In this document: positions 11,009 to 51,615 of the stretch, one piece after another
Layout: each line of letters opens with the position of its first letter
Numbering within the stretch: position 1 is the stretch's first letter
Assembly (NCBI GenBank): GCA_037951105.1
Contig: JBAMJV010007123.1
Coordinates: 124,001 to 188,000 of the forward strand
Length of the DNA stretch: 64,000 nt
DNA from: Echinarachnius parma
Taxonomy: Eukaryota; Echinodermata; Echinoidea; Clypeasteroida; Echinarachniidae
Reading direction: 5' to 3'
Notes under the pieces: generated by a model
What the model was told of the DNA's origin: nothing
Database searches by the model: none
Seen by the model: only the letters and a program-made list of their open reading frames with translations
Translations under genes and position numbers: made by a program

Positions 11009-11019
11009 CATTTTGAATT

Positions 11020-17765: not shown

Positions 17766-18760
17766 TTATTTATTCCTTCCTTACATAATAGTATCTGCAA
17801 ACACATTACTACAACTAAATTCATGCATCCTTGCTCCTTTATATATCAAAAAGAATAAAAACTTTAATTTATGGACTTCCAACCACATGCAGTTCGGTCT
17901 CAATATCGTTTAATACATGTATTTATTTTTCTTTTATTGATATACACATTTGGTGAGTCTTGGTAATTATTGTGACGTCTTGGAAAATTGCGCGTTCCCA
18001 TGATAGAGCTTGTGGAGCGAATCGCAATAAACAAATCGGCTAGGCTCGCAAAACGTTTTTCGTTTAAAGATTTAATTCTCCGTGTTGCCAAGTATAAAAT
18101 AATTCGTGACGATAACAGGCGATTGTCAATCGGAACCTTGAATAGTGATCGATTCATCCATGTAATATACTGCCCTCTACATCTTACATCTACATATTGA
18201 TAGCTGGATAAATGTAATTCGCACACACACACATACTAGAGGGATACATGATTCAAATAATATAATTTCAACCTTAATTTCGATCGGTATCCAGCTATCA
18301 ATATGTAGGTGTAAGATGTAGAGGGCAGTATATGGATGAATCGATTACTATTCAACGTTCCGATTGACAATCGCCTATTATCGTCACGAATTATTTTGCA
18401 CTTGGCAACACGGAGAATTAAATCTTTAAACGAAAAACGTTTTGCGAGCCTTGCCGATTTGTTTATTGCGATTCGTTCCCCAAGCTCTATCAATGGAACG
18501 CGCAATTTTTCAAGACGTCACAATAATTACCAAGACTCACCAAATGTCTATATCAATAAAAAAGAAAAAGAAATACATGTATTAAACGATATTGAGGCAG
18601 AACTGCATTTGGTTGGTAGTCCATAACATAATTTTTTTAAATTCTTTTTAATATATAAAGGAGCAAGGATGCATGAATTTAGTTGTAGTAATGTGTTTGC
18701 AGATCATATTATGTAAGGAAGATCAAAATAATACAGATTAAACACGGAAGAGAAAAAAAG

Positions 18761-20363: not shown

Positions 20364-20708
20364 TCACAATTGCGAGTGGTCGAAGGAAGAGAGCGTTTTA
20401 GAGAACTGCTGGTCAGAGGTCGATGTGCCTGTCATCAGCGTCATGGATGTCGACTTCCTGTCGCTGCGTCTTTTCCAGAACATATCTATGGAAGAGGGCG
20501 GTCTTGTGGAATTGCTATGCTGACGATGACAGCAGCAGCAGGGGACGGCCCTCCACAGGAGATAGACACGCCTGTTGGCCACGAAGGCGAGACAGATGTA
20601 GACGCCCTGGAGAGAGTTGAGCGTGATGAAGACATACCAGAGGGCTTTCACCCCAGAGAAAGCAGCCACAAATCCAAAGAGCCACGTGAACCCCAGGAGT
20701 GTTGAGAT
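20364..20708 (-). CDS. Receptor exon 3: TM6, TM7 and cytoplasmic tail
   Basis: The exon starts after TTTTTTCATTAATGACAG at 20708 and ends with TGA at 20364-20366 (residues 892-1005). ISTLLGFTWLFGFVAAFSG is a textbook secretin/adhesion-class TM6, and WYVFITLNSLQGVYICLAF is TM7 with the class-typical NSLQGV. Spliced to exon 2 it restores LRIYLK-ISTLLGFTWLFGF without a gap, which is strong support for the junction. The tail (VNRR-like basic start, a CCCC cluster that could be palmitoylated, then Ser/Thr-rich sequence ending DHSQL) is about 60 residues and may be phosphorylated. Confidence 0.85.
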   Translation of the reverse strand: MSTLLGFTWLFGFVAAFSGVKALWYVFITLNSLQGVYICLAFVANRRVYLLWRAVPCCCCHRQHSNSTRPPSSIDMFWKRRSDRKSTSMTLMTGTSTSDQQFSKTLSSFDHSQL

Positions 20709-25880: not shown

Positions 25881-27279
25881 GTCTGGTGTATGAATTTAAC
25901 AAAACTATTAACATTTCATGTCAGCGTTGACATGTGATTATGACGATTGCTTCGGTCGCACAATTAAAACAGACCGCCCCCTCCCCTTGCTTCTCATTGC
26001 TAAGACTGACTCCTCACCTTGCCTCATATTGGTAGGACTGTCCCCTCTCCTTGCCTCTTATTGGTAGGACTGTCCCCTCCCCTCTTATTGGTAGGACTAT
26101 CCCCTCCCCTTGTCTCTTATTGGTAAGACCGTCCCCTCCCCTTGCCTCATATTGGTTGGACTGTCCCCTCTCCTTGCCTCTTATTGGTAGGACTGTCCCC
26201 TCCCCTCTTATTGGTAGGACTGTCCCCTCCCCTCTTATTGGTAGGACTATCCCCTCCCCTTGTCTCTTATTGGTAAGACCGTCCCCTCACCTTGCCTCTT
26301 ATTGGTAGGACTGACTCCTCACCTTTCGTCTTATTGGTAGGACTATCCCCTCCCCTTGCCTCTTATTGGTAGGACTGTCCCCTCCCCTAGCCTCTTATTG
26401 GTAGGACTGTCCCCTCCTCTTGCGTCTTATTGGTAAGACAGTCCCTTCCCCTTACCTCTTATTGGCAAGACTATCCCATCCCCTTGCCTCTTATTGGTAA
26501 GACTGTACCCTCACATTGCCTCTTATTGGTAGGACTATCCCCTCCCATTGCCTCTTATTTGTAAGACTGTCCCACCCCCTTGTCTCTTATTTGTGAGACT
26601 GTCCCCTCCCCTTGCCTCTTATTGGTAAGACTGTCCACTCTCCTTGCCTCTTATTGGTAAGACTGTCCCCTCCCCTTGACTCTTATTGGTAAGACTGTCC
26701 CCTCCCCTTGCCTCTTATAGGTAAGACTGTCCCCTCCCCTTGCCTCTTATTGGTAAGACTGTCCACTCCCCTTGCCTCTTATTGGTAAGACTGTCCCCTC
26801 CCCTTGCCTCTTATAGGTAAGACTGTCCCCTCCCCTTGCCTCTTATTGGTAGGAATATCCCCTCCCCTTGCCTCTTATTTGTAAGACTATCCCCTCCCCT
26901 TGCCTCTTATTTGTAAGACTGTCCCCGCTCCTTGCCTCTTATTGGTAAGACTATCCCCTCCCCTTGCCTCTTATTTGTAAGACTATCCCCTCCCCTTGCC
27001 TCTTATTTGTAAGACTGTCCCCTCTCCTTGCCTCTTATTTGAAAGACTATCCACTCCCCTTGCCTCTTATTTGTAAGACTGTCCCCGCTCCTTGCCTCTT
27101 ATTGGTAAGACTGTCCCCTCCCCTTGTCTCTTATTGGTAAGACTGTCCCATCCCCTTGACTCTTATTGGTAAGACTGTCCCATCCCCTTGACTCTTATTG
27201 GTAAGACTGTCCCCTCCCCTTGCCTATTATTGGTAATACTGCCTCCTCCCTTTGCCTCTTATTGGTAATACTGCCTCTT

Positions 27280-27333
27280 GCCATAGACACTGCGAGGTTA
27301 TGGATCAAAGTTTCCTACCTGCTGCCAGGTTGA
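27280..27333 (-). repeat. Exon-1/intron-1 boundary copy 1 inside the satellite
   Basis: A 54-bp sequence identical to 51510-51563. In gene sense it has 15 exon-1 bases (TCAACCTGGCAGCAG) followed by the donor GTAGGAAACTTTG and 26 more intron bases. On the plus-strand left it is preceded by ggtaatactgcctctt, as in the original. Confidence 0.95.
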
Positions 27334-28905
27334 CTGTCCCCTCCCCTTGCCTCTTATTGGTAGGACTATCCCCCCTTGCCTCTTATTGGTAAGACTATCC
27401 CATCCCCTTGCCTCTTATCGGAAAGACTGTCCCCTCCCCTTGCCTCTCATTTGTAAGACTATCCCCTCCGCTTGCCCCTTATTTGTAAGACTGTCCCCTC
27501 CCCTTGCCTCTTATTGGTAAGACTATCCCCTCCACTTGCCTCTTATTGGTAGGTTTGTCCCCTCCTCTTGCGTCTTATTGGTAAGACTGTCCCCTCCCCT
27601 TGCCTCTTATTGGTAAGACTATCCCACCCCTTGCCTCTTATTGGTAAGACTATCCCATCCCCTTGACTCTTATTGGTAAGACTGTCCCCTCCCCTTGCCT
27701 CTCATTTGTAAGACTATCCCCTCCGCTTGCCCCTTATTTGTAAGACTGTCCCCTCCCTTGCCTCTTATTGGTAAGACTATCCCCTCCACTTGCCTCTTAT
27801 TGGTAGGACTGTCCCCTCCTCTTGCGTCTTATTGGTAAGACTGTCCCCGCCCCTTGCCTCTTATTGGTAGGACTATCCCCTCCCCTTGCCTCTTATTGGT
27901 AAGACTATCCCATCCCCTTGCCTCTTATTGGTAAGACTATCCCATCCCCTTGACTCTTATTGGTAAGACTGTCCCCGCTCCTTGCCTCTTATTGGTAAGA
28001 CTTTCCCATCCCCTTGACTCTTATTGGTATGACTGTCCCATCCCCTTGACTCTTATTGGTAAGACTGCGTCCTCCCCTTGTCTTTTATTGGTAAGACTGT
28101 CCCATCCCCTTGCCTCTTATTGGTAAGACTGCCTCCTTCCCTTGCCTCTTATTGGTAGGACCATCCCATCCCCTTGCCTCTTATTGGTAAGACTGTCCCC
28201 TCCCCTTGCCTCTTATTGGTAAGACTGTCCCATCCCCTTGACTCTTATTGGTAAGACTATCCCCTCCACTTGCCTCTTATTGGTAAGACTATCCCCTCCA
28301 CTTGCCTCTTATTGGTAAGACTGTCCCCTCACATTGCCTCTTATTTGTAAGACTATCCCCTCCACTTGCCTCTTATTGGTAGGACTATCCCCTCCCCTTC
28401 CCTCTTATTTGTAAGACTATCCCCTCCCCTTGCCTCTTATTTGTAAAACTGTCCGCTCCCCTTGCCTCTTATTGGTAAGACTATCCCATCCCCTTGCCTC
28501 TTATTGGTAAGACTGCCTCCTCCCCTTGCCTATTATTGGTAAGACTGCCTCCTCCCCTTGCCTCTTATTGGTAAGACTGTCCCATCCCCTTGCCTCTTAT
28601 TGGTAAGACTGTCCCCTCCCCTTGTCTCTTATTGGTAAGACTGTCCCCTCCCCTTGACTCTTATTGGTAAGACTGTCCCATCCCCTTGACTCTTATTGGT
28701 AAGACTGTCCCCTCCCCTTGTCTCTTATTGGTAAGACTGTCCCATCCCCTTGACTCTTATTGGTAAGACTGTCCCATCCCCTTGACTCTTATTGGTAAGA
28801 CTGTCCCCTCCCCTTGCCTATTATTGGTAAGACTGTCCCATCCCCTTGCCTATTATTGGTAAGACTGCCTCCTCCCTTTGCCTCTTATTGGTAATACTGC
28901 CTCTT

Positions 28906-28959
28906 GCCATAGACACTGCGAGGTTATGGATCAAAGTTTCCTACCTGCTGCCAGGTTGA
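28906..28959 (-). repeat. Exon-1/intron-1 boundary copy 2
   Basis: Identical 54 bp, ending 1,626 bp after copy 1. It is followed by the tatcggaaagac satellite variant, as are copies 1 and 5. Confidence 0.95.
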
Positions 28960-31301
28960 CTGTCCCCTCCCCTTGCCTCTTATTGGTAGGACTATCCCCC
29001 CTTGCCTCTTATTGGTAAGACTGTCCCATCCCCTTGCCTCTTATCGGAAAGACTGTCCCCTCCCCTTGCCTCTCATTTGTAAGACTATCCCCTCCGCTTG
29101 CCCCTTATTTGTAAGACTGTCCCCTCCCCTTGCCTCTTATTGGTAAGACTATCCCCTCCACTTGCCTCTTATTGGTAGGATTGTCCCCTCCTCTTGCGTC
29201 TTATTGGTAAGACTGTCCCCTCCCCTTGCCTCTTATTGGTAAGACTATCCCACCCCTTGCCTCTTATTGGTAAGACTATCCCATCCCCTTGACTCTTATT
29301 GGTAAGACTGTCCCCTCCCCTTGCCTCTCATTTGTAAGACTATCCCCTCCGCTTGCCCCTTATTTGTAAGACTCTCCCCTCCCCTTGCCTCTTATTGGTA
29401 AGACTATCCCCTCCACTTGCCTCTTATTGGTAGGACTGTCCCCTCCTCTTGCGTCTTATTGGTAAGACTGTCCCCGCCCCTTGCCTCTTATTGGTAGGAC
29501 TATCCCCTCCCCTTGCCTCTTATTGGTAAGACTATCCCATCCCCTTGCCTCTTATTGGTAAGACTATCCCATCCCCTTGACTCTTATTGGTAAGACTGTC
29601 CCCGCTCCTTGCCTCTTATTGGTAAGACTGTCCCATCCCCTTGACTCTTATTGGTAAGACTGTCCCCTCCCCTTGACTCTTATTGGTAAGACTGTCCCCT
29701 CCCCTTGCCTCTTATTGGTAGGACTATCCCCTCCCCTTGCCTATTATTGGTAAGACTGTCCCATCCCCTTGCCTCGTATTGGTAGGACTGTCCCATCCCC
29801 TTGACTCTTATTGGTAAGAAGGTCCCCTCCCCTTGCCTCTTATTGGTAGGACTATCCCCTCCCCTTGCCTATTATTGGTAAGACTGTCCCATCCCCTTGC
29901 CTCTTATTGGTAAGACTGTCCCATCCCCTTGCCTCTTATTGGTAAGACTGCGTCCTCCCCTTGTCTCTTATTTGTAAGACTGTCCCATCCCCTTGCCTCT
30001 TATTGGTAGGACTATCCCATCCCCTTGCCTCTTATTGGTAAGACTGCCTCCTTCCCTTGCCTCTTATTGGTAGGACTATCCCCTCCTCTTGCCTCTTATT
30101 GGTAAGACTGTCCCATCCCCTTGATTCTCATTGGTAAGACTGTCCCCGCCCCATGCCTAGTATTGGTAAGACTGTCCCATCCCCTTGCCTCTTATTGGTA
30201 AGACTGCCTCCTCCCCTTGCCTCATATTGGTAGGACTGCCTCCTCCCCTTGCCTCATATTGGTAGGACTATCCCATCCCCTTGCCTCTTATTGGTAAGAC
30301 TGCCTCCTCCCCTTGCCTCTTATTGGTAGGACTATCACATCCCCTTGCCTATTATTGGTAAGACTGCCTCCTCCCCTTGCCTCATATTGTTAGGACTATC
30401 CCATCCCCTTGCCTATTATTGGTAGGACTATCCCATCCCCTTGCCTCTTATTGGTAGGACTGTCCCCTCCTCTTGCCTCTTATTGGTAAGACTGTCCCCT
30501 CCCCTTGCCTCATATTGGTAGGACTATCCCATCCCCTTGCCTATTATTGGTAAGACTGTCCCATCCCCTTGCCTCTTATTGGTAGGACTGTCCACTCCTC
30601 TTGCCTCTTATTGGTAAGACTGTCCTATCCCCTTGCCTCTTATTGGTAGGACTGTCCACTCCTCTTGCCTCTTATTAGTAAGACTGTCCCATCCCCTTGC
30701 CTCTTATTGGTAGGACTATCCCATCCCCTTGCCTCTTATTGGTAGGACTGTCCCCCTCCTCTTGCCTCTTATTGGTAAGACTGCCTCCTCCCCTTGCCTC
30801 TTATTGGTAAGACTGTCCCATCCCCTTGCCTCTTATTGGTAAGACTGCCTCCTCCCCTTGCCTCTTATTTGTAAGACTGTCCCATCCCCTTGACTCTTAT
30901 TGGTAAGACTGCGTCCTCTCCTTGTCTCTTATTGGTAAGACTATCCCCTCCCCTTGACTCTTATTGGTAAGACTGTCCCCTCCCCTTGTCTCTTATTGGT
31001 AAGACTGTCCCCTCCCCTTGACTCTTAGTGGTAAGACTGTCCCCTCCCCTTGACTCTTATTTGTAAAACTGTCCCCTCCCCTTGCCTCTTATTGGTAAGA
31101 CTATCCCATCCACTTGCCTCTTATTGGTAAGACTGTCCCATCCCCTTGACTCTTATTGGTAAGACTGTCCCCTTCCCTTGCCTATTATTGGTAAGACTGT
31201 CCCATCCCCTTGCCTATTATTGGTAAGACTGCCCCCTCCCCTTGCCTCTTATTGGTAAAACTGCCTCCTCCCCTTGCCTCTTATTGGTAATACTGCCTCT
31301 T

Positions 31302-31355
31302 GCCATAGACACTGCGAGGTTATGGATCAAAGTTTCCTACCTGCTGCCAGGTTGA
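31302..31355 (-). repeat. Exon-1/intron-1 boundary copy 3
   Basis: Identical 54 bp, 2,396 bp after copy 2. It is followed by the tatcggatagac variant, shared with copies 4, 6 and 7. Confidence 0.95.
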
Positions 31356-34300
31356 CTGTCCCCTCCCCTTGCCTCTTATTGGTAGGACTATCCCCCCTTG
31401 CCTCTTATTGGTAAGACTGTCCCATCCCCTTGCCTCTTATCGGATAGACTGTCCCCTCCCCTTGCCTCTCATTTGTAAGACTATCCCCTCCGCTTGCCCC
31501 TTATTTGTAAGACTGTCCCCTCCCCTTGCCTCTTATTGGTAAGACTATCCCCTCCACTTGCCTCTTATTGGTAGGACTGTCCCCTCCTCTCGCGTCTTAT
31601 TGGTAAGACTGTCCCCGCCCCTTGCCTCTTATTGGTAGGACTATCCCCTCCCCTTGCCTCTTATTTGTAAAACTGTCCCCTCCCCTTGCCTCTTATTGGT
31701 AAGACTATCCCACCCCCTTGCCTCTTATTGGTAAGACTGTCCCATCCCCTTGACTCTTATTGGTAAGACTGTCCCCTCCCCTTGCCTCTTATTGGTAGGA
31801 CTATCCCCTCCCCTTGCCTATTATTGGTAAGACTGTCCCATCCCCTTGCCTCGTATTGGTAGGACTGTCCCATCCCCTTGACTCTTATTGGTAAGAAGGT
31901 CCCCTCCCCTTGCCTCTTATTGGTAAGACTGTCCCATCCCCTTGCCTCTTATTGGTAAGACTGCCTCCTCCCCTTGCCTCTTATTGGTAAGACTGCCTCC
32001 TTCCCTTGCCTCTTATTGGTAGGACTATCCCCTCCTCTTGCCTCTTATAGGTAAGACTGTCCCATCCCCTTGCCTCTTATTGGTAAGACTATCCCACCCC
32101 CTTGCCTCTTATTGGTAAGACTGTCCCATCCCCTTGACTCTTATTGGTAAGACTGTCCCCTCCCCTTGCCTCTTATTGGTAGGACTATCCCCTCCCCTTG
32201 CCTATTATTGGTAAGACTGTCCCATCCCCTTGCCTCGTATTGGTAGGACTGTCCCATCCCCTTGACTCTTATTGGTAAGAAGGTCCCCTCCCCTTGCCTC
32301 TTATTGGTAAGACTGTCCCATCCCCTTGCCTCTTATTGGTAGGACTGTCCCCTCCTCTTGCCTCTTATTTGTAAGACTGTCCCATCCCCTTGCCTCTTAT
32401 TGGTAAGACTAAACCATCCCCTTGCCTCTTATTGGTAAGACTGCCTCCTTCCCTTGCCTTTTATTGGTAGGACTATCCCCTCCTCTTGCCTCTTATTGGT
32501 AGGACTGTCCCATCCCCTTGACTCTTATTGGTAGGACTGTCCCCTCCTCTTGTCTCTTATTTGTAAGACTGTCCCATCCCCTTGCCTCTTATTGGTAGGA
32601 CTAAACCATCCCCTTGCCTCTTATTGGTAAGACTGCCTCCTTCCCTTGCCTCTTATTGGTAGGACTATCCCCTCCTCTTGCCTCTTATTGGTAAGACTGT
32701 CCCATCCCCTTGACTCTTATTGGTAAGACTGTCCCCGCCCCATGCCTATTATTGGTAAGACTGTCCCATCCCCTTGCCTATTATTGGTAAGATTGTCCCA
32801 TCCCCTTGACTCTTATTGGTAAGACTGTCCCATCCCCTTGCCTCTTATTGGTAAGACTGTCCCCTCCCCTTGCCTCTTATTGGTAGGACTGTCCCCTCCC
32901 CTTGCCTCTTATTGGTAAGACTGTCCCCTCCCCTTGCCTCTTATTGGTAGGACTGTCCCCTCCCCTTGCCTCTTATTGGTAGGACTGTCCCCTCCCCTTG
33001 CCTCTTATTGGTAAGACTGTCCCCTCCCCTTGACTCTTATTGGTAAGACTATCCCCTCCCCTTGACTCTTATTGGTAAGACTGTCCCCTCCCCTTGTCTC
33101 TTATTAGTAAGACTGTCCCATCCCCTTGCCTCTTATTGGTAGGACTATCCCATCCCCTTGCCTCTTATTGGTAAGACTGTCCCCCTCCTCTTGCCTCTTA
33201 TTTGTAAGACTGCCTCCTCCCCTTGCCTCTTATTGGTAAGACTGTCCCATCCCCTTGCCTATTATTGGTAAGACTGCCTCCTCCCCTTGCCTATTATTGG
33301 TAAGACTGCCTCCTCCCCTTGCCTATTATTGGTAATACTGTCCCATCCCCTTGCCTCTTATTGGTAAGACTGTCCCATCCCCTTGCCTCTTATTGGTAAG
33401 ACTGCGTCCTCCCCTTGTCTCTTATTTGTAAGACTGTCCCATCCCCTTGCCTCTTATTGGTAGGACTATCCCATCCCCTTGCCTCTTATTGGTAAGACTG
33501 CCTCCTTCCCTTGCCTCTTATTGGTAGGACTATCCCCTCCTCTTGCCTCTTATTGGTAAGACTGTCCCATCCCCTTGCCTCGTATTGGTAGGACTGTCCC
33601 ATCCCCTTGACTCTTATTGGTAAGAAGGTCCCCTCCCCTTGCCTCTTATTGGTAAGACTGTCCCATCCCCTTGCCTCTTATTGGTAAGACTGCCTCCTCC
33701 CCTTGCCTCTTATTGGTAAGACTGCCTCCTTCCCTTGCCTCTTATTGGTAGGACTATCCCCTCCTCTTGCCTCTTATTGGTAAGACTGTCCCATCCCCTT
33801 GCCTCTTATTGGTAAGACTATCCCACCCCCTTGCCTCTTATTGGTAAGACTGTCCCATCCCCTTGACTCTTATTGGTAAGACTGTCCCCTCCCCTTGCCT
33901 CTTATTGGTAGGACTATCCCCTCCCCTTGCCTATTATTGGTATGACTGTCCCATCCCCTTGCCTCGTATTGGTAGGACTGTCCCATCCCCTTGACTCTTA
34001 TTGGTAAGAAGGTCCCCTCCCCTTGCCTCTTATTGGTAAGACTGTCCCATCCCCTTGCCTCTTATTGGTAGGACTGTCCCCTCCTCTTGCCTCTTATTTG
34101 TAAGACTGTCCCATCCCCTTGCCTCTTATTGGTAAGACTAAACCATCCCCTTGCCTCTTATTGGTAAGACTGCCTCCTTCCCTTGCCTTTTATTGGTAGG
34201 ACTATCCCCTCCTCTTGCCTCTTATTGGTAGGACTGTCCCATCCCCTTGACTCTTATTGGTAAGACTGTCCCCGCCCCATGCCTATTATTGGTAAGACTG

Positions 34301-37300
34301 TCCCATCCCCTTGCCTATTATTGGTAAGATTGTCCCATCCCCTTGACTCTTATTGGTAAGACTGTCCCATCCCCTTGCCTCTTATTGGTAAGACTGTCCC
34401 CTCCCCTTGCCTCTTATTGGTAGGACTGTCCCCTCCCCTTGCCTCTTATTGGTAAGACTGTCCCCTCCCCTTGCCTCTTATTGGTAGGACTGTCCCCTCC
34501 CCTTGCCTCTTATTGGTAGGACTGTCCCCTCCCCTTGCCTCTTATTGGTAAGACTGTCCCCTCCCCTTGACTCTTATTGGTAAGACTATCCCCTCCCCTT
34601 GACTCTTATTGGTAAGACTGTCCCCTCCCCTTGTCTCTTATTAGTAAGACTTTCCCATCCCCTTGCCTCTTATTGGTAGGACTATCCCATCCCCTTGCCT
34701 CTTATTGGTAAGACTGTCCCCCTCCTCTTGCCTCTTATTTGTAAGACTGCCTCCTCCCCTTGCCTCTTATTGGTAAGACTGTCCCATCCCCTTGCCTATT
34801 ATTGGTAAGACTGCCTCCTCCCCTTGCCTATTATTGGTAAGACTGCCTCCTCCCCTTGCCTATTATTGGTAATACTGTCCCATCCCCTTGCCTCTTATTG
34901 GTAAGACTGTCCCATCCCCTTGCCTCTTATTGGTAAGACTGCGTCCTCCCCTTGTCTCTTATTTGTAAGACTGTCCCATCCCCTTGCCTCTTATTGGTAG
35001 GACTATCCCATCCCCTTGCCTCTTATTGGTAAGACTGCCTCCTTCCCTTGCCTCTTTTTGGTAGGACTATCCCCTCCTCTTGCCTCTTATTGGTAAGACT
35101 GTCCCATCCCCTTGACTCTCATTGGTAAGACTGTCCCCGCCCCATGCCTAGTATTGGTAAGACTGTCCCATCCCCTTGCCTCTTATTGGTAAGACTGCCT
35201 CCTCCCCTTGCCTCATATTGGTAGGACTGCCTCCTCCCCTTGCCTCATATTGGTAGGACTATCCCATCCCCTTGCCTCTTATTGGTAAGACTGCCTCCTC
35301 CCCTTGCCTCTTATTGGTAAGACTATCCCCTCCTCTTGCCTCTTATTGGTAGGACTGTCCCATCCCCTTGACTCTTATTGGTAGGACTGTCCCCTCCTCT
35401 TGTCTCTTATTTGTAAGACTGTCCCATCCCCTTGCCTCTTATTGGTAGGACTAAACCATCCCCTTGCCTCTTATTGGTAAGACTGCCTCCTTCCCTTGCC
35501 TTTTATTGGTAGGACTATCCCCTCCTCTTGCCTCTTATTGGTAGGACTGTCCCATCCCCTTGACTCTTATTGGTAGGACTGTCCCCTCCTCTTGTCTCTT
35601 ATTTGTAAGACTGTCCCATCCCCTTGCCTCTTATTGGTAGGACTAAACCATCCCCTTGCCTCTTATTGGTAAGACTGCCTCCTTCCCTTGCCTCTTATTG
35701 GTAGGACTATCCCCTCCTCTTGCCTCTTATTGGTAAGACTGTCCCATCCCCTTGACTCTTATTGGTAAGACTGTCCCCGCCCCATGCCTATTATTGGTAA
35801 GACTGTCCCATCCCCTTGCCTATTATTGGTAAGATTGTCCCATCCCCTTGACTCTTATTGGTAAGACTGTCCCATCCCCTTGCCTCTTATTGGTAAGACT
35901 GTCCCCTCCCCTTGCCTCTTATTGGTAGGACTGTCCCCTCCCCTTGCCTCTTATTGGTAAGACTGTCCCCTCCCCTTGCCTCTTATTGGTAGGACTGTCC
36001 CCTCCCCTTGCCTCTTATTGGTAGGACTGTCCCCTCCCCTTGCCTCTTATTGGTAAGACTGTCCCCTCCCCTTGACTCTTATTGGTAAGACTATCCCCTC
36101 CCCTTGACTCTTATTGGTAAGACTGTCCCCTCCCCTTGTCTCTTATTAGTAAGACTGTCCCATCCCCTTGCCTCTTATTGGTAGGACTATCCCATCCCCT
36201 TGCCTCTTATTGGTAAGACTGTCCCCCTCCTCTTGCCTCTTATTTGTAAGACTGCCTCCTCCCCTTGCCTCTTATTGGTAAGACTGTCCCATCCCCTTGC
36301 CTATTATTGGTAAGACTGCCTCCTCCCCTTGCCTATTATTGGTAAGACTGCCTCCTCCCCTTGCCTATTATTGGTAATACTGTCCCATCCCCTTGCCTCT
36401 TATTGGTAAGACTGTCCCATCCCCTTGCCTCTTATTGGTAAGACTGCGTCCTCCCCTTGTCTCTTATTTGTAAGACTGTCCCATCCCCTTGCCTCTTATT
36501 GGTAGGACTATCCCATCCCCTTGCCTCTTATTGGTAAGACTGCCTCCTTCCCTTGCCTCTTATTGGTAGGACTATCCCCTCCTCTTGCCTCTTATTGGTA
36601 AGACTGTCCCATCCCCTTGCCTCGTATTGGTAGGACTGTCCCATCCCCTTGACTCTTATTGGTAAGAAGGTCCCCTCCCCTTGCCTCTTATTGGTAAGAC
36701 TGTCCCATCCCCTTGCCTCTTATTGGTAAGACTGCCTCCTCCCCTTGCCTCTTATTGGTAAGACTGCCTCCTTCCCTTGCCTCTTATTGGTAGGACTATC
36801 CCCTCCTCTTGCCTCTTATTGGTAAGACTGTCCCATCCCCTTGCCTCTTATTGGTAAGACTATCCCACCCCCTTGCCTCTTATTGGTAAGACTGTCCCAT
36901 CCCCTTGACTCTTATTGGTAAGACTGTCCCCTCCCCTTGCCTCTTATTGGTAGGACTATCCCCTCCCCTTGCCTATTATTGGTATGACTGTCCCATCCCC
37001 TTGCCTCGTATTGGTAGGACTGTCCCATCCCCTTGACTCTTATTGGTAAGAAGGTCCCCTCCCCTTGCCTCTTATTGGTAAGACTGTCCCATCCCCTTGC
37101 CTCTTATTGGTAGGACTGTCCCCTCCTCTTGCCTCTTATTTGTAAGACTGTCCCATCCCCTTGCCTCTTATTGGTAAGACTAAACCATCCCCTTGCCTCT
37201 TATTGGTAAGACTGCCTCCTTCCCTTGCCTTTTATTGGTAGGACTATCCCCTCCTCTTGCCTCTTATTGGTAGGACTGTCCCATCCCCTTGACTCTTATT

Positions 37301-39430: not shown

Positions 39431-39484
39431 GCCATAGACACTGCGAGGTTATGGATCAAAGTTTCCTACCTGCTGCCAGGTTGA
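39431..39484 (-). repeat. Exon-1/intron-1 boundary copy 4
   Basis: Identical 54 bp, 8,129 bp after copy 3, tatcggatagac type. Confidence 0.95.
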
Positions 39485-41853
39485 CTGTCCCCTCCCCTTG
39501 CCTCTTATTGGTAGGACTATCCCCCCTTGCCTCTTATTGGTAAGACTGTCCCATCCCCTTGCCTCTTATCGGATAGACTGTCCCCTCCCCTTGCCTCTCA
39601 TTTGTAAGACTATCCCCTCCGCTTGCCCCTTATTTGTAAGACTGTCCCCTCCCCTTGCCTCTTATTGGTAAGACTATCCCCTCCACTTGCCTCTTATTGG
39701 TAGGACTGTCCCCTCCTCTCGCGTCTTATTGGTAAGACTGTCCCCGCCCCTTGCCTCTTATTGGTAGGACTATCCCCTCCCCTTGCCTCTTATTTGTAAA
39801 ACTGTCCCCTCCCCTTGCCTCTTATTGGTAAGACTATCCCACCCCCTTGCCTCTTATTGGTAAGACTGTCCCATCCCCTTGCCTCTTATTGGTAAGACTG
39901 TCCCCTCCCCTTGCCTCTTATTGGTAGGACTATCCCCTCCCCTTGCCTATTATTGGTAAGACTGTCCCATCCCCTTGCCTCGTATTGGTAGGACTGTCCC
40001 ATCCCCTTGACTCTTATTGGTAAGAAGGTCCCCTCCCCTTGCCTCTTTTTGGTAAGACTGTCCCATCCCCTTGCCTCTTATTGGTAAGACTGCCTCCTCC
40101 CCTTGCCTCTTATTGGTAAGACTGCCTCCTTCCCTTGCCTCTTATTGGTAGGACTATCCCCTCCTCTTGCCTCTTATTGGTAAGACTGTCCCATCCCCTT
40201 GCCTCTTATTGGTAAGACTATCCCACCCCCTTGCCTCTTATTGGTAAGACTGTCCCATCCCCTTGACTCTTATTGGTAAGACTGTCCCCTCCCCTTGCCT
40301 CTTATTGGTAGGACTATCCCCCCTTGCCTCTTATTGGTAAGACTGTCCCATCCCCTTGCCTCTTATCGGAAAGACTGTCCCCTCCCCTTGCCTCTCATTT
40401 GTAAGACTATCCCCTCCGCTTGCCCCTTATTTGTAAGACTGTCCCCTCCCCTTGCCTCTTATTGGTAAGACTATCCCCTCCACTTGCCTCTTATTGGTAG
40501 GATTGTCCCCTCCTCTTGCGTCTTATTGGTAAGACTGTCCCCTCCCCTTGCCTCTTATTGGTAAGACTATCCCACCCCTTGCCTCTTATTGGTAAGACTA
40601 TCCCATCCCCTTGACTCTTATTGGTAAGACTGTCCCCTCCCCTTGCCTCTCATTTGTAAGACTATCCCCTCCGCTTGCCCCTTATTTGTAAGACTGTCCC
40701 CTCCCTTGCCTCTTATTGGTAAGACTATCCCCTCCACTTGCCTCTTATTGGTAGGACTGTCCCCTCCTCTTGCGTCTTATTGGTAAGACTGTCCCCGCCC
40801 CTTGCCTCTTATTGGTAGGACTATCCCCTCCCCTTGCCTCTTATTGGTAAGACTATCCCATCCCCTTGCCTCTTATTGGTAAGACTATCCCATCCCCTTG
40901 ACTCTTATTGGTAAGACTGTCCCCGCTCCTTGCCTCTTATTGGTAAGACTTTCCCATCCCCTTGACTCTTATTGGTAAGACTGTCCCATCCCCTTGACTC
41001 TTATTGGTAAGACTGCGTCCTCCCCTTGTCTTTTATTGGTAAGACTGTCCCATCCCCTTGCCTCTTATTGGTAAGACTGCCTCCTTCCCTTGCCTCTTAT
41101 TGGTAGGACCATCCCATCCCCTTGCCTCTTATTGGTAAGACTGTCCCCTCCCCTTGCCTCTTATTGGTAAGACTGTCCCATCCCCTTGACTCTTATTGGT
41201 AAGACTATCCCCTCCACTTGCCTCTTATTGGTAAGACTATCCCCTCCACTTGCCTCTTATTGGTAAGACTGTCCCCTCACATTGCCTCTTATTTGTAAGA
41301 CTATCCCCTCCACTTGCCTCTTATTGGTAGGACTATCCCCTCCCCTTCCCTCTTATTTGTAAGACTATCCCCTCCCCTTGCCTCTTATTTGTAAAACTGT
41401 CCGCTCCCCTTGCCTCTTATTGGTAAGACTATCCCATCCCCTTGCCTCTTATTGGTAAGACTGCCTCCTCCCCTTGCCTATTATTGGTAAGACTGCCTCC
41501 TCCCCTTGCCTCTTATTGGTAAGACTGTCCCATCCCCTTGCCTCTTATTGGTAAGACTGTCCCCTCCCCTTGTCTCTTATTGGTAAGACTGTCCCCTCCC
41601 CTTGACTCTTATTGGTAAGACTGTCCCATCCCCTTGACTCTTATTGGTAAGACTGTCCCCTCCCCTTGTCTCTTATTGGTAAGACTGTCCCATCCCCTTG
41701 ACTCTTATTGGTAAGACTGTCCCATCCCCTTGACTCTTATTGGTAAGACTGTCCCCTCCCCTTGCCTATTATTGGTAAGACTGTCCCATCCCCTTGCCTA
41801 TTATTGGTAAGACTGCCTCCTCCCTTTGCCTCTTATTGGTAATACTGCCTCTT

Positions 41854-41907
41854 GCCATAGACACTGCGAGGTTATGGATCAAAGTTTCCTACCTGCTGCC
41901 AGGTTGA
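41854..41907 (-). repeat. Exon-1/intron-1 boundary copy 5
   Basis: Identical 54 bp. It lies exactly 12,948 bp from copy 2 and is its counterpart in the macro-duplication. Confidence 0.95.
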
Positions 41908-44249
41908 CTGTCCCCTCCCCTTGCCTCTTATTGGTAGGACTATCCCCCCTTGCCTCTTATTGGTAAGACTGTCCCATCCCCTTGCCTCTTATCGGAAAGA
42001 CTGTCCCCTCCCCTTGCCTCTCATTTGTAAGACTATCCCCTCCGCTTGCCCCTTATTTGTAAGACTGTCCCCTCCCCTTGCCTCTTATTGGTAAGACTAT
42101 CCCCTCCACTTGCCTCTTATTGGTAGCATTGTCCCCTCCTCTTGCGTCTTATTGGTAAGACTGTCCCCTCCCCTTGCCTCTTATTGGTAAGACTATCCCA
42201 CCCCTTGCCTCTTATTGGTAAGACTATCCCATCCCCTTGACTCTTATTGGTAAGACTGTCCCCTCCCCTTGCCTCTCATTTGTAAGACTATCCCCTCCGC
42301 TTGCCCCTTATTTGTAAGACTCTCCCCTCCCCTTGCCTCTTATTGGTAAGACTATCCCCTCCACTTGCCTCTTATTGGTAGGACTGTCCCCTCCTCTTGC
42401 GTCTTATTGGTAAGACTGTCCCCGCCCCTTGCCTCTTATTGGTAGGACTATCCCCTCCCCTTGCCTCTTATTGGTAAGACTATCCCATCCCCTTGCCTCT
42501 TATTGGTAAGACTATCCCATCCCCTTGACTCTTATTGGTAAGACTGTCCCCGCTCCTTGCCTCTTATTGGTAAGACTGTCCCATCCCCTTGACTCTTATT
42601 GGTAAGACTGTCCCCTCCCCTTGACTCTTATTGGTAAGACTGTCCCCTCCCCTTGCCTCTTATTGGTAGGACTATCCCCTCCCCTTGCCTATTATTGGTA
42701 AGACTGTCCCATCCCCTTGCCTCGTATTGGTAGGACTGTCCCATCCCCTTGACTCTTATTGGTAAGAAGGTCCCCTCCCCTTGCCTCTTATTGGTAGGAC
42801 TATCCCCTCCCCTTGCCTATTATTGGTAAGACTGTCCCATCCCCTTGCCTCTTATTGGTAAGACTGTCCCATCCCCTTGCCTCTTATTGGTAAGACTGCG
42901 TCCTCCCCTTGTCTCTTATTTGTAAGACTGTCCCATCCCCTTGCCTCTTATTGGTAGGACTATCCCATCCCCTTGCCTCTTATTGGTAAGACTGCCTCCT
43001 TCCCTTGCCTCTTATTGGTAGGACTATCCCCTCCTCTTGCCTCTTATTGGTAAGACTGTCCCATCCCCTTGACTCTCATTGGTAAGACTGTCCCCGCCCC
43101 ATGCCTAGTATTGGTAAGACTGTCCCATCCCCTTGCCTCTTATTGGTAAGACTGCCTCCTCCCCTTGCCTCATATTGGTAGGACTGCCTCCTCCCCTTGC
43201 CTCATATTGGTAGGACTATCCCATCCCCTTGCCTCTTATTGGTAAGACTGCCTCCTCCCCTTGCCTCTTATTGGTAGGACTATCACATCCCCTTGCCTAT
43301 TATTGGTAAGACTGCCTCCTCCCCTTGCCTCATATTGGTAGGACTATCCCATCCCCTTGCCTATTATTGGTAGGACTATCCCATCCCCTTGCCTCTTATT
43401 GGTAGGACTGTCCCCTCCTCTTGCCTCTTATTGGTAAGACTGTCCCCTCCCCTTGCCTCATATTGGTAGGACTATCCCATCCCCTTGCCTATTATTGGTA
43501 AGACTGTCCCATCCCCTTGCCTCTTATTGGTAGGACTGTCCACTCCTCTTGCCTCTTATTGGTAAGACTGTCCCATCCCCTTGCCTCTTATTGGTAGGAC
43601 TGTCCACTCCTCTTGCCTCTTATTAGTAAGACTGTCCCATCCCCTTGCCTCTTATTGGTAGAACTATCCCATCCCCTTGCCTCTTATTGGTAGGACTGTC
43701 CCCCTCCTCTTGCCTCTTATTGGTAAGACTGCCTCCTCCCCTTGCCTCTTATTGGTAAGACTGTCCCATCCCCTTGCCTCTTATTGGTAAGACTGCCTCC
43801 TCCCCTTGCCTCTTATTTGTAAGACTGTCCCATCCCCTTGACTCTTATTGGTAAGACTGCGTCCTCCCCTTGTCTCTTATTGGTAAGACTATCCCCTCCC
43901 CTTGACTCTTATTGGTAAGACTGTCCCCTCCCCTTGTCTCTTATTGGTAAGACTGTCCCCTCCCCTTGACTCTTATTGGTAAGACTGTCCCCTCCCCTTG
44001 ACTCTTATTTGTAAAACTGTCCCCTCCCCTTGCCTCTTATTGGTAAGACTATCCCATCCACTTGCCTCTTATTGGTAAGACTGTCCCATCCCCTTGACTC
44101 TTATTGGTAAGACTGTCCCCTTCCCTTGCCTATTATTGGTAAGACTGTCCCATCCCCTTGCCTATTATTGGTAAGACTGCCCCCTCCCCTTGCCTCTTAT
44201 TGGTAAAACTGCCTCCTCCCCTTGCCTCTTATTGGTAATACTGCCTCTT

Positions 44250-44303
44250 GCCATAGACACTGCGAGGTTATGGATCAAAGTTTCCTACCTGCTGCCAGGT
44301 TGA
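44250..44303 (-). repeat. Exon-1/intron-1 boundary copy 6
   Basis: Identical 54 bp. It lies exactly 12,948 bp from copy 3 and 2,396 bp from copy 5. Confidence 0.95.
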
Positions 44304-47300
44304 CTGTCCCCTCCCCTTGCCTCTTATTGGTAGGACTATCCCCCCTTGCCTCTTATTGGTAAGACTGTCCCATCCCCTTGCCTCTTATCGGATAGACTGT
44401 CCCCTCCCCTTGCCTCTCATTTGTAAGACTATCCCCTCCGCTTGCCCCTTATTTGTAAGACTGTCCCCTCCCCTTGCCTCTTATTGGTAAGACTATCCCC
44501 TCCAATTGCCTCTTATTGGTAGGACTGTCCCCTCCTCTCGCGTCTTATTGGTAAGACTGTCCCCGCCCCTTGCCTCTTATTGTTAGGACTATCCCCTCCC
44601 CTTGCCTCTTATTTGTAAAACTGTCCCCTCCCCTTGCCTCTTATTGGTAAGACTATCCCACCCCCTTGCCTCTTATTGGTAAGAATGTCCCATCCCCTTG
44701 ACTCTTATTGGTAAGACTGTCCCCTCCCCTTGCCTCTTATTGGTAGGACTATCCCCTCCCCTTGCCTATTATTGGTAAGACTGTCCCATCCCCTTGCCTC
44801 GTATTGGTAGGACTGTCCCATCCCCTTGACTCTTATTGGTAAGAAGGTCCCCTCCCCTTGCCTCTTATTGGTAAGACTGTCCCATCCCCTTGCCTCTTAT
44901 TGGTAAGACTGCCTCCTCCCCTTGCCTCTTATTGGTAAGACTGCCTCCTTCCCTTGCCTCTTATTGGTAGGACTATCCCCTCCTCTTGCCTCTTATTGGT
45001 AAGACTGTCCCATCCCCTTGCCTCTTATTGGTAAGACTATCCCACCCCCTTGCCTCTTATTGGTAAGACTGTCCCATCCCCTTGACTCTTATTGGTAAGA
45101 CTGTCCCCTCCCCTTGCCTCTTATTGGTAGGACTATCCCCTCCCCTTGCCTATTATTGGTAAGACTGTCCCATCCCCTTGCCTCGTATTGGTAGGACTGT
45201 CCCATCCCCTTGACTCTTATAGGTAAGAAGGTCCCCTCCCCTTGCCTCTTATTGGTAAGACTGTCCCATCCCCTTGCCTCTTATTGGTAGGACTGTCCCC
45301 TCCTCTTGCCTCTTATTTGTAAGACTGTCCCATCCCCTTGCCTCTTATTGGTAAGACTAAACCATCCCCTTGCCTCTTATTGGTAAGACTGCCTCCTTCC
45401 CTTGCCTTTTATTGGTAGGACTATCCCCTCCTCTTGCCTCTTATTGGTAGGACTGTCCCATCCCCTTGACTCTTATTGGTAGGACTGTCCCCTCCTCTTG
45501 TCTCTTATTTGTAAGACTGTCCCATCCCCTTGCCTCTTATTGGTAGGACTAAACCATCCCCTTGCCTCTTATTGGTAAGACTGCCTCCTTCCCTTGCCTC
45601 TTATTGGTAGGACTATCCCCTCCTCTTGCCTCTTATTGGTAAGACTGTCCCATCCCCTTGACTCTTATTGGTAAGACTGTCCCCGCCCCATGCCTATTAT
45701 TGGTAAGACTGTCCCATCCCCTTGCCTATTATTGGTAAGATTGTCCCATCCCCTTGACTCTTATTGGTAAGACTGTCCCATCCCCTTGCCTCTTATTGGT
45801 AAGACTGTCCCCTCCCCTTGCCTCTTATTGGTAGGACTGTCCCCTCCCCTTGCCTCTTATTGGTAAGACTGTCCCCTCCCCTTGCCTCTTATTGGTAGGA
45901 CTGTCCCCTCCCCTTGCCTCTTATTGGTAGGACTGTCCCCTCCCCTTGCCTCTTATTGGTAAGACTGTCCCCTCCCCTTGACTCTTATTGGTAAGACTAT
46001 CCCCTCCCCTTGACTCTTATTGGTAAGACTGTCCCCTCCCCTTGTCTCTTATTAGTAAGACTGTCCCATCCCCTTGCCTCTTATTGGTAGGACTATCCCA
46101 TCCCCTTGCCTCTTATTGGTAAGACTGTCCCCCTCCTCTTGCCTCTTATTTGTAAGACTGCCTCCTCCCCTTGCCTCTTATTGGTAAGACTGTCCCATCC
46201 CCTTGCCTATTATTGGTAAGACTGCCTCCTCCCCTTGCCTATTATTGGTAGGACTGCCTCCTCCCCTTGCCTATTATTGGTAATACTGTCCCATCCCCTT
46301 GCCTCTTATTGGTAAGACTGTCCCATCCCCTTGCCTCTTATTGGTAAGACTGCGTCCTCCCCTTGTCTCTTATTTGTAAGACTGTCCCATCCCCTTGCCT
46401 CTTATTGGTAGGACTATCCCATCCCCTTGCCTCTTATTGGTAAGACTGCCTCCTTCCCTTGCCTCTTATTGGTAGGACTATCCCCTCCTCTTGCCTCTTA
46501 TTGGTAAGACTGTCCCATCCCCTTGCCTCGTATTGGTAGGACTGTCCCATCCCCTTGACTCTTATTGGTAAGAAGGTCCCCTCCCCTTGCCTCTTATTGG
46601 TAAGACTGTCCCATCCCCTTGCCTCTTATTGGTAAGACTGCCTCCTCCCCTTGCCTCTTATTGGTAAGACTGCCTCCTTCCCTTGCCTCTTATTGGTAGG
46701 ACTATCCCCTCCTCTTGCCTCTTATTGGTAAGACTGTCCCATCCCCTTGCCTCTTATTGGTAAGACTATCCCACCCCCTTGCCTCTTATTGGTAAGACTG
46801 TCCCATCCCCTTGACTCTTATTGGTAAGACTGTCCCCTCCCCTTGCCTCTTATTGGTAGGACTATCCCCTCCCCTTGCCTATTATTGGTAAGACTGTCCC
46901 ATCCCCTTACCTCGTATTGGTAGGACTGTCCCATCCCCTTGACTCTTATTGGTAAGAAGGTCCCCTCCCCTTGCCTCTTATTGGTAAGACTGTCCCATCC
47001 CCTTGCCTCTTATTGGTAGGACTGTCCCCTCCTCTTGCCTCTTATTTGTAAGACTGTCCCATCCCCTTGCCTCTTATTGGTAAGACTAAACCATCCCCTT
47101 GCCTCTTATTGGTAAGACTGCCTCCTTCCCTTGCCTTTTATTGGTAGGACTATCCCCTCCTCTTGCCTCTTATTGGTAGGACTGTCCCATCCCCTTGACT
47201 CTTATTGGTAGGACTGTCCCCTCCTCTTGTCTCTTATTTGTAAGACTGTCCCATCCCCTTGCCTTTTATTGGTAGGACTAAACCATCCCCTTGCCTCTTA

Positions 47301-49496
47301 TTGGTAAGACTGCCTCCTTCCCTTGCCTCTTATTGGTAGGACTATCCCCTCCTCTTGCCTCTTATTGGTAAGACTGTCCCATCCCCTTGACTCTTATTGG
47401 TAAGACTGTCCCCGCCCCATGCCTATTATTGGTAAGACTGTCCCATCCCCTTGCCTATTATTGGTAAGATTGTCCCATCCCCTTGACTCTTATTGGTAAG
47501 ACTGTCCCATCCCCTTGCCTCTTATTGGTAAGACTGTCCCCTCCCCTTGCCTCTTATTGGTAGGACTGTCCCCTCCCCTTGCCTCTTATTGGTAAGACTG
47601 TCCCCTCCCCTTGCCTCTTATTGGTAGGACTGTCCCCTCCCCTTGCCTCTTATTGGTAGGACTGTCCCCTCCCCTTGCCTCTTATTGGTAAGACTGTCCC
47701 CTCCCCTTGACTCTTATTGGTAAGACTATCCCCTCCCCTTGAATCTTATTGGTAAGACTGTCCCCTCCCCTTGTCTCTTATTAGTAAGACTGTCCCATCC
47801 CCTTGCCTCTTATTGGTAGGACTATCCCATCCCCTTGCCTCTTATTGGTAAGACTGTCCCCCTCCTCTTGCCTCTTATTTGTAAGACTGCCTCCTCCCCT
47901 TGCCTCTTATTGGTAAGACTGTCCCATCCCCTTGCCTATTATTGGTAAGACTGCCTCCTCCCCTTGCCTATTATTGGTAAGACTGCCTCCTCCCCTTGCC
48001 TATTATTGGTAATACTGTCCCATCCCCTTGCCTCTTATTGGTAAGACTGTCCCATCCCCTTGCCTCTTATTGGTAAGACTGCGTCCTCCCCTTGTCTCTT
48101 ATTTGTAAGACTGTCCCATCCCCTTGCCTCTTATTGGTAGGACTATCCCATCCCCTTGCCTCTTATTGGTAAGACTGCCTCCTCCTCTTGCCTCTTATTG
48201 GTAAGACTGTCCCATCCCCTTGACTCTCATTGGTAAGACTGTCCCCGCCCCATGCCTAGTATTGGTAAGACTGTCCCATCCCCTTGCCTCTTATTGGTAA
48301 GACTGCCTCCTCCCCTTGCCTCATATTGGTAGGACTGCCTCCTCCCCTTGCCTCATATTGGTAGGACTATCCCATCCCCTTGCCTCTTATTGGTAAGACT
48401 GCCTCCTCCCCTTGCCTCTTATTGGTAAGACTGTCCCCTCCCCTTGCCTCATATTGGTAGGACTATCCCATCCCCTTGCCTATTATTGGTAGGACTATCC
48501 CATCCCCTTGCCTCTTATTGGTAGGACTGTCCCCTCCTCTTGCCTCTTATTGGTAAGACTGCCTCCTCCCCTTGCCTCATATTGGTAGGACTATCCCATC
48601 CCCTTGCCTATTATTGGTAGGACTATCCCATCCCCTTGCCTCTTATTGGTAGGACTGTCCCCTCCTCTTGCCTCTAATTGGTAAGACTGTCCCCTCCCCT
48701 TGCCTCATATTGGTAGGACTATCCCATCCCCTTGCCTATTATTGGTAAGACTGTCCCATCCCCTTGCCTCTTATTGGTAGGACTGTCCACTCCTCTTGCC
48801 TCTTATTGGTAAGACTGTCCCATCCCCTTGCCTCTTATTGGTAGGACTGTCCACTCCTCTTGCCTCTTATTAGTAAGACTGTCCCATCCCCTTGCCTCTT
48901 ATTGGTAGGACTATCCCATCCCCTTGCCTCTTATTGGTAGGACTGTCCCCCTCCTCTTGCCTCTTATTGGTAAGACTGCCTCCTCCCTTTGCCTCTTATT
49001 GGTAAGACTGTCCCATCCCCTTGCCTCTTATTGGTAAGACTGCCTCCTCCCCTTGCCTCTTATTTGTAAGACTGTCCCATCCCCTTGACTCTTATTGGTA
49101 AGACTGCGTCCTCCCCTTGTCTCTTATTGGTAAGACTATCCCCTCCCCTTGACTCTTATTGGTAAGACTGTCCCCTCCCCTTGTCTCTTATTGGTAAGAC
49201 TGTCCCCTCCCCTTGACTCTTATTGGTAAGACTGTCCCCTCCCCTTGACTCTTATTTGTAAAACTGTCCCCTCCCCTTGCCTCTTATTGGTAAGACTATC
49301 CCATCCACTTGCCTCTTATTGGTAAGACTGTCCCATCCCCTTGACTCTTATTGGTAAGACTGTCCCCTTCCCTTGCCTATTATTGGTAAGACTGTCCCAT
49401 CCCCTTGCCTATTATTGGTAAGATTGCCCCCTCCCCTTGCCTCTTATTGGTAAAACTGCCTCCTCCCCTTGCCTCTTATTGGTAATACTGCCTCTT

Positions 49497-49550
49497 GCCA
49501 TAGACACTGCGAGGTTATGGATCAAAGTTTCCTACCTGCTGCCAGGTTGA
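49497..49550 (-). repeat. Exon-1/intron-1 boundary copy 7
   Basis: Identical 54 bp, 10,066 bp after copy 4 and 2,013 bp before the true exon-1 boundary. Confidence 0.95.
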
Positions 49551-51548
49551 CTGTCCCCTCCCCTTGCCTCTTATTGGTAGGACTATCCCCCCTTGCCTCT
49601 TATTGGTAAGACTGTCCCATCCCCTTGCCTCTTATCGGATAGACTGTCCCCTCCCCTTGCCTCTCATTTGTAAGACTATCCCCTCCGCTTGCCCCTTATT
49701 TGTAAGACTGTCCCCTCCCCTTGCCTCTTATTGGTAAGACTATCCCCTCCACTTGCCTCTTATTGGTAGGACTGTCCCCTCCTCTCGCGTCTTATTGGTA
49801 AGACTGTCCCCGCCCCTTGCCTCTTATTGGTAGGACTATCCCCTCCCCTTGCCTCTTATTTGTAAAACTGTCCCCTCCCCTTGCCTCTTATTGGTAAGAC
49901 TATCCCACCCCCTTGCCTCTTATTGGTAAGACTGTCCCATCCCCTTGACTCTTATTGGTAAGACTGTCCCCTCCCCTTGCCTCTTATTGGTAGGACTATC
50001 CCCTCCCCTTGCCTATTATTGGTAAGACTGTCCCATCCCCTTGCCTCGTATTGGTAGGACTGTCCCATCCCCTTGACTCTTATTGGTAAGAAGGTCCCCT
50101 CCCCTTGCCTCTTTTTGGTAAGACTGTCCCATCCCCTTGCCTCTTATTGGTAAGACTGCCTCCTCCCCTTGCCTCTTATTGGTAAGACTGCCTCCTTCCC
50201 TTGCCTCTTATTGGTAGGACTATCCCCTCCTCTTGCCTCTTATTGGTAAGACTGTCCCATCCCCTTGCCTCTTATTGGTAAGACTATCCCACCCCCTTGC
50301 CTCTTATTGGTAAGACTGTCCCATCCCCTTGACTCTTATTGGTAAGACTGTCCCCTCCCCTTGCCTCTTATTGGTAGGACTATCCCCTCCCCTTGCCTAT
50401 TATTGGTAAGACTGTCCCATCCCCTTGCCTCGTATTGGTAGGACTGTCCCATCCCCTTGACTCTTATTGGTAAGAAGGTCCCCTCCCCTTGCCTCTTATT
50501 GGTAAGACTGTCCCATCCCCTTGCCTCTTATTGGTAGGACTGTCCCCTCCTCTTGCCTCTTATTTGTAAGACTGTCCCATCCCCTTGCCTCTTATTGGTA
50601 AGACTAAACCATCCCCTTGCCTCTTATTGGTAAGACTGCCTCCTTCCCTTGCCTTTTATTGGTAGGACTATCCCCTCCTCTTGCCTCTTATTGGTAGGAC
50701 TGTCCCATCCCCTTGACTCTTATTGGTAGGACTGTCCCCTCCTCTTGTCTCTTATTTGTAAGACTGTCCCATCCCCTTGCCTCTTATTGGTAGGACTAAA
50801 CCATCCCCTTGCCTCTTATTGGTAAGACTGCCTCCTTCCCTTGCCTCTTATTGGTAGGACTATCCACTCCTCTTGCCTCTTATTGGTAAGACTGTCCCAT
50901 CCCCTTGACTCTTATTGGTAAGACTGTCCCCGCCCCATGCCTATTATTGGTAAGACTGTCCCATCCCCTTGCCTATTATTGGTAAGATTGTCCCATCCCC
51001 TTGACTCTTATTGGTAAGACTGTCCCATCCCCTTGCCTCTTATTGGTAAGACTGTCCCCTCCCCTTGCCTCTTATTGGTAGGACTGTCCCCTCCCCTTGC
51101 CTCTTATTGGTAAGACTGTCCCCTCCCCTTGCCTCTTATTGGTAGGACTGTCCCCTCCCCTTGCCTCTTATTGGTAGGACTGTCCCCTCCCCTTGCCTCT
51201 TATTGGTAAGACTGTCCCCTCCCCTTGACTCTTATTGGTAAGACTATCCCCTCCCCTTGACTCTTATTGGTAAGACTGTCCCCTCCCCTTGTCTCTTATT
51301 AGTAAGACTGTCCCATCCCCTTGCCTCTTATTGGTAGGAATATCCCATCCCCTTGCCTCTTATTGGTAAAACTGTCCCCCTCCTCTTGCCTCTTATTTGT
51401 AAGACTGCCTCCTCCCCTTGCCTCTTATTGGTAAGACTGTCCCATCCCCTTGCCTATTATTGGTAAGACTGCCTCCTCCCCTTGCCTATTATTGGTAATA
51501 CTGCCTCTTGCCATAGACACTGCGAGGTTATGGATCAAAGTTTCCTAC

Positions 51549-51615
51549 CTGCTGCCAGGTTGATGCCGATGAGAGGAAATACCAAGATGACGAGTAACAT
51601 GAGTAAGAACCGCAT
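51549..51615 (-). CDS. Receptor exon 1: signal peptide
   Basis: ATG at 51613-51615 opens a hydrophobic leader, MRFLLMLLVILVFPLIG followed by INLAA, then one base of codon 23. It ends at GCAG|GTAGGAAA (last exon base 51549). The 67-nt coding length gives phase 1, which fits exon 2's G|GA exactly and yields ...NLAAGASKTV. Upstream, GCATTTTTTCAGCAG at about 51638-51652 looks like a tandem (NAGNAG) acceptor, so a non-coding first exon may lie further out. The assignment rests on phase, splice sites and leader character. The unspliced ATG at 25080-25082 is the rival start. Confidence 0.72.

Follow-up and report, generated by a model that had tools for sequence, protein, structure and literature searches.

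How can a satellite that fills an intron come to hold exact copies of the splice donor of the very gene in which it lies? The question is raised by a stretch of 64,000 nucleotides of the echinoid Echinarachnius parma (assembly GCA_037951105.1, contig JBAMJV010007123.1, positions 124,001 to 188,000 of the forward strand), called the window here and numbered from its first letter. A predicted receptor gene lies on the minus strand of the window, and its predicted intron 1 of 26,512 bp (51548-25037) consists almost wholly of a 32-bp satellite. Within this satellite the end of exon 1 together with its donor recurs seven times. The copies are probably the result of one tandem duplication into the existing satellite, followed by amplification of blocks in which they would have travelled as neutral passengers.

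Exact copies of the exon 1 donor in the satellite

The repeated segment of 54 bp is called the core, and its copies inside the intron are called decoys. The elements concerned are as follows, the core and its copies being located by sequence match.

51549..51615, minus strand: predicted exon 1 (coding part) with ATG, signal peptide and phase-1 end at CAG|GTAGGA, by sequence prediction
51510..51563, minus strand: core at the real exon-intron boundary
49497..49550, minus strand: decoy core copy, class B, first intron base 49535
44250..44303, minus strand: decoy core copy, class B, first intron base 44288
41854..41907, minus strand: decoy core copy, class A, first intron base 41892
39431..39484, minus strand: decoy core copy, class B, first intron base 39469
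31302..31355, minus strand: decoy core copy, class B, first intron base 31340
28906..28959, minus strand: decoy core copy, class A, first intron base 28944
27280..27333, minus strand: decoy core copy, class C, first intron base 27318
25971..51503, no strand assigned: 32-bp satellite array with higher-order blocks, most of intron 1, by Tandem Repeats Finder (TRF) and lag analysis

The core comprises 15 exon bases (51549-51563), the donor GT (51548-51547) and 37 more bases that end in a satellite-like GCC. As the first-pass annotation of this DNA had claimed, it occurs eight times, once at the exon and seven times within the satellite of intron 1, and the copies show no mismatch. No other core-like place was found on either strand of the window with up to 18 mismatches in 54 bases. 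Exact matches of a 32-base part of the core in the 1.2-Gb assembly number eight in forward and none in reverse orientation, every one of them at this locus (a control pattern gave no match), and the viral contigs searched with the 32-base piece contain no exact match. A chance origin of the copies is excluded.

All eight copies are identical over 75 bp, that is over the core and 21 bp on its satellite side. The agreement at every base, which the annotation had singled out, is real, but it is not special, because the seven internal copies placed in register contain an invariant stretch of 111 bp without the core next to one of 145 bp with it, and other 75-mers of the array are present up to 17 times. 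Selection keeping the copies identical was considered and is not needed, given these other invariant stretches. It had also been stated that the neighbouring 32-bp units vary, and this holds between the three classes of decoys but not within them, where identity is at least 99% over 600 bp of each flank. Over that length the class A copies (28906 and 41854) differ at no site on the satellite side and at one on the exon side, and the class B copies (31302, 39431, 44250 and 49497) at 2-4 and 1-5 sites, respectively. The amplification of the core appears to be recent relative to point mutation.

The array itself spans 25.5 kb, with a period of 32, 799 copies and 87% matches according to TRF. Anchor spacings are exactly 32 in 712 of 761 cases, which indicates head-to-tail monomers of one length. 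Lag analysis reveals higher-order blocks, 0.9 to 7 kb long and 97.4 to 99.5% identical, versus 85% at lag 32; 95.7% of the array is covered by blocks that reach 400 bp and 97% identity, the exception being its far edge (25971-27063). These blocks and the junction common to all decoys described below support the view that the exon-intron junction travelled within higher-order units as they multiplied. The array (25971-51503) is also asymmetric between the strands, with 34% G, 16% C and 69% purine in gene sense from about 45 bp past exon 1. Such a G-rich layout could favour RNA-DNA hybrids if it is transcribed; four-run G-quadruplex motifs with loops of 7, 12 or 15 are absent from the array, and an Rfam search returned no match.

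The recombinant junction and its two apparent parents

On their exon side the seven decoys have one common junction, GCCAGGTTGA|CTGTCC. The sequence left of the bar continues at the real exon as GCCAGGTTGA|TGCCG, which is the exon parent, and the sequence right of it is found in uninterrupted satellite as ATTGGTAAGA|CTGTCC, which is the apparent satellite parent.

40281..40282, no strand assigned: uninterrupted satellite site with the decoy-type flank and without the core, found by flank scan

When the array was scanned with the 280 bp beyond the junction (at least 268 of 280 matching), eight places were obtained: seven follow a core and one, at 40282, follows plain satellite. At the breakpoint the decoys, the exon and the satellite site have two bases in common, GA. 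Decoys of one class match each other on both flanks, and the exon copy matches them on the satellite side only.

The following course of events would account for this pattern. The 32-bp satellite would already have been in intron 1, adjoining the donor of exon 1. A tandem duplication whose join shared two bases (GA) would have had one end 15 nucleotides inside the 3' end of exon 1 and the other in the satellite, leaving exon 1 whole and placing a shortened version of the exon's 3' edge, with the donor, inside the intron. Unequal exchange or copying of kilobase-sized blocks would later have raised the captured copy to seven.

That the satellite was there first is suggested by the lack of likeness between monomer and core and by a junction that has a satellite partner. 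The first-pass annotation had instead derived the array from the exon-intron boundary itself, and the position of the core at the edge of the array does agree with such an origin. The monomer, however, is no more similar to the core than to shuffled versions of it (local score 8, shuffled mean 10.5, p = 0.99; p = 0.80 in the other orientation), no similarity was detected between the monomer and either the rest of exon 1 or the 200 bp upstream (p of at least 0.28), and the junction appears to have been formed with satellite already in existence. Growth of the array out of the boundary is thus most improbable and this part of the earlier description was given up.

The capture of the exon edge by a pre-existing satellite is nevertheless opposed by several observations. 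The plain satellite site at 40281/40282 sits amid the decoys, where the simplest single duplication predicts a position beyond them, and therefore a later rearrangement must be assumed. The same site could be a decoy from which an exchange no more than about 30 bp away removed the core, because its flank begins with some 30 bp of consensus satellite. The two flanks of the core also behave differently: when the classes and the exon copy are compared, mismatches on the satellite side set in 22-43 bp from the core and give way to background divergence, and the exon side is common over some 290 bp, in which mismatches are few. Such an asymmetry is not expected from random neutral exchange. Furthermore, the satellite beside the real core (50602-51498) recurs without a core at no fewer than five internal places, with 397-398 of 400 bases matching; the five best end near 33315, 36357, 37894, 46263 and 47992. 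Exchange seems to have taken place right at the satellite edge of the core more than once, as if that edge were preferred.

The last point could be taken much further. With exchange junctions lying within tens of bases of the satellite edge of the core in several copies, the edge of exon 1 might be a recurrent breakpoint of a G-rich satellite, and the decoy donors might serve as landing sites for U1 that protect the long intron until its true acceptor has been synthesised. This proposal is regarded as highly improbable.

The host gene and the standing of exon 1

Two further predicted exons complete the gene of exon 1.

22431..25036, minus strand: predicted exon 2 with a somatomedin-B domain and most of the seven-transmembrane (7TM) region, by Pfam and protein matches
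20364..20708, minus strand: predicted last coding exon, stop codon included, by prediction

Joined in gene order (51615-51549, 25036-22431 and 20708-20364), the exons encode 1005 amino acids with no internal stop, and the product is 42.5% identical to a Lytechinus protein of 1001 amino acids, residues 3 to 1003 being aligned. Exon 2 exceeds the Pfam cut-offs for 7tm_2 (37.9 bits) and for Somatomedin_B (30.8 bits). Its 7TM region is of the secretin family and is combined with an extracellular domain, here somatomedin B, which is the makeup of an adhesion-type receptor; a GAIN/GPS region gave no match in the Pfam search of exon 2 at E 0.01. Among 4887 candidate proteins three match exon 2 at E 0.001 or better, two of them strongly and both from sea urchins (Diadema antillarum 43%, Lytechinus pictus 41%). 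The host is probably a sea-urchin receptor gene.

The first exon calls for closer attention. The splice scores used in this work come from a simple matrix whose frequencies are not echinoid ones. A search of the gene strand for an ATG followed by 15-45 codons and a phase-1 donor scoring at least 5 gave four candidates, of which two are starts of the exon 1 frame (hydropathy 3.66 and 3.38) and two belong to another, weakly hydrophobic frame (1.5). The opposite strand gave one candidate of this type, with a hydropathy of 0.3.

It might be supposed that exon 1 lies outside the gene, that translation starts in exon 2 and that the core is unique DNA captured from beside the array. The frame of exon 2 does extend upstream, where MPFKLL... 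would be a possible start. The Diadema protein lends exon 1 no support, as it lacks a comparable signal peptide and aligns with the model only from residue 30 onwards; the conservation of signal peptides is generally poor. Hydrophobic candidates like exon 1 are rare in shuffled non-array sequence (0.083 per 38 kb, 60 shuffles), and exon 1 raises the Lytechinus alignment by 23 score units, versus 0 for the alternative start; shuffled exon 1 residues gained 12.5 on average and reached 23 in 3.5% of 2000 trials. Together with the stop-free model, so close in length to the Lytechinus protein, these results make a start in exon 2 unlikely. The coding part of the receptor gene thus plausibly starts with predicted exon 1, as had been proposed, on evidence that is fair and not final. 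An acceptor-like site at 51641, upstream of the ATG, scores 0.15 and leaves room for an exon of the 5' untranslated region ahead of the ATG exon. A plasmid search with the exon 1 region found no match.

The receptor has many relatives in its own assembly. At least 76 matching stretches with a similar long exon, the query included, are 26-40% identical (52 of 97 candidates scored). Some pairs of these paralogues on different contigs score nearly equal and are perhaps unmerged haplotypes.

Such pairs could be held to indicate that some copies of the core, too, are false duplications or merged haplotypes in the assembly, the more so as kilobase-scale blocks at 97-99.5% identity are difficult for assemblers. 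The window, however, contains no N, the decoys fall into three classes with different flanks, the blocks differ at scattered sites, and the receptor exon has a single full match in the assembly, the next best being 40% identical among the candidates scored. It is quite unlikely that copies arose in this way, and an artefact, though it might bring the number of decoys below seven, would not give rise to the junction.

Other elements of the window lie outside the gene. Upstream of exon 1, at 52583-57748, a non-long-terminal-repeat retrotransposon stands on the strand opposite to the receptor, with one frame that has a weak zinc-knuckle match and another with endonuclease, reverse transcriptase and RNase H. 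A search with the retroelement gave 406 relatives, and among the 120 listed the few with names include no echinoderm. A family of similar short frames is repeated downstream of the receptor gene, at 15448-15783, 17900-18235 and 18315-18626. The remainder comprises a frame with a GIY-YIG domain at 946-2466, which we take to be Penelope-like (its reverse-transcriptase match of 27.8 bits is below the Pfam cut-off of 29.6), two long CA-rich tracts with similar frames (8426-9202 and 10213-11016), a repeated frame beginning MTSFLLVGATNMG (9308-9613 and 14105-14416), and a 186-bp unit in 1.8 copies with 99% matches (12601-12941).

Splicing potential of the decoys and known parallels

Consequences for splicing had been raised, expressly as inference, from the presence of seven extra donors, and they look unlikely from the scores. 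The true donor and the decoys score 5.19 and the donor of exon 2 scores 3.19. In gene sense the array has 12 donor-like sites that score 5 or more, namely the seven decoys and five other sites (26017, 26290, 26322, 26455 and 46910), which at 7.1-7.2 are stronger than the copies of the boundary. Acceptors are another matter: of 3614 AGs in the gene-sense array none reaches a score of 2, and the best, at 1.6, lie inside the decoy cores, versus 4.04 and 1.76 for the predicted true acceptors. On the array's opposite strand 260 acceptor-like sites score 2 or more, and the left flank has 52 such sites in gene sense. The orientation present is, by these scores, the acceptor-poor one.

U1 could pair with the decoys as with the true donor, and the array would offer no good 3' splice site from which exons could be made. 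The decoys, which lie 2.0 to 24.2 kb beyond exon 1, are thus probably idle in splicing, and pseudo-exons from the array are unlikely. Read-through of the exon 1 donor meets a stop after 26 codons, and therefore exon 1 extended to any decoy would yield no receptor. The silence of these passengers is put in some doubt by the cut-off of 2, since it would miss the gene's own weaker predicted acceptor (1.76), a score that the best array acceptors (1.6) nearly reach. A pseudo-exon, about 0.8 kb long, might therefore run from the core near 27290 as far as 26455, one of the strong donors.

The decoy donors may, on the other hand, be thought functional, for example as U1 sites guarding a long intron from premature polyadenylation or as regulated donors. 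Their match to the true donor over the whole core and the presence of 10 AATAAA in the gene-sense array are in keeping with such a role. Recent amplification explains the identity, the array has other stretches that vary as little, its five further donor-like sites outscore the decoys and hardly any acceptor-like site is available, so that a function of this kind is judged very unlikely. Selection against polyadenylation signals is unsupported, given those 10 AATAAA in repeat copies that are not independent. Recursive splicing at the decoys was likewise considered and is unlikely, with only 35% pyrimidine in the 20 nucleotides ahead of the CAG. Nor could seven sites plausibly sequester U1.

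An intronic repeat with copies of the host donor already has a human precedent. The gene IFI6 (6-16, G1P3) reportedly contains a splice-donor minisatellite, attributed to the work of Turri, Cuin and Porter in 1995 (Nucleic Acids Res 23:1854, cited in PMC2572611 and PMC2915984), with a short donor-bearing repeat unit and extra donors that are said to be used. In both cases a tandem repeat at an exon-intron boundary gives extra copies of the host donor, which in IFI6 are said to fall within the transcript. The unit of IFI6 is reportedly itself the donor, whereas the 32-bp unit here is not (12 sites scoring 5 or more in about 799 units), and the donor of the echinoid array rides in a few higher-order units and is probably idle.

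Other parallels are partial. Tandem genomic duplication of AGGT segments is described as a recognised source of introns and splice sites (PMC3443670), with a case in potato (PMC4974935). In the intron gain of PMC3443670 a tandem duplication likewise copies an AG|GT segment, and CAGGTAGG lies within the core that would have been duplicated in tandem; here, unlike there, the copy falls in an intron that is itself already part of the prediction, and no new one is required for the predicted transcript. The Drosophila genes kl-3 and kl-5 are described as having gigantic introns that contain satellite (PMC6508621), and in them, too, satellite fills the intron of a coding gene. Those introns reach megabases, whereas the predicted intron here has 26.5 kb and its satellite carries host exon sequence. 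Immunoglobulin switch regions, the subject of PMC9921937 and PMC5904731, share a long intronic tandem repeat with a G-rich non-template strand; unlike them, the array implies no programmed recombination and is without a four-run G-quadruplex motif, loops of up to 15 included.

Among the matches listed in the open-licence literature, no other satellite holding copies of a host exon-intron junction was encountered. What differs in the present case is a host exon edge that would have been captured once and multiplied as a higher-order landmark, with both apparent parents visible. Because these parents and the recombinant junction survive in one intron, the locus is a near base-pair record of a satellite taking a splice site from its host gene. 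With seven exact copies of a true donor, it also lends itself as a natural test of the splicing machinery's ability to ignore such sites. In the reciprocal product of an exchange of this type the end of exon 1 would be missing, and arrays adjoining exons may therefore be a mutational hazard.

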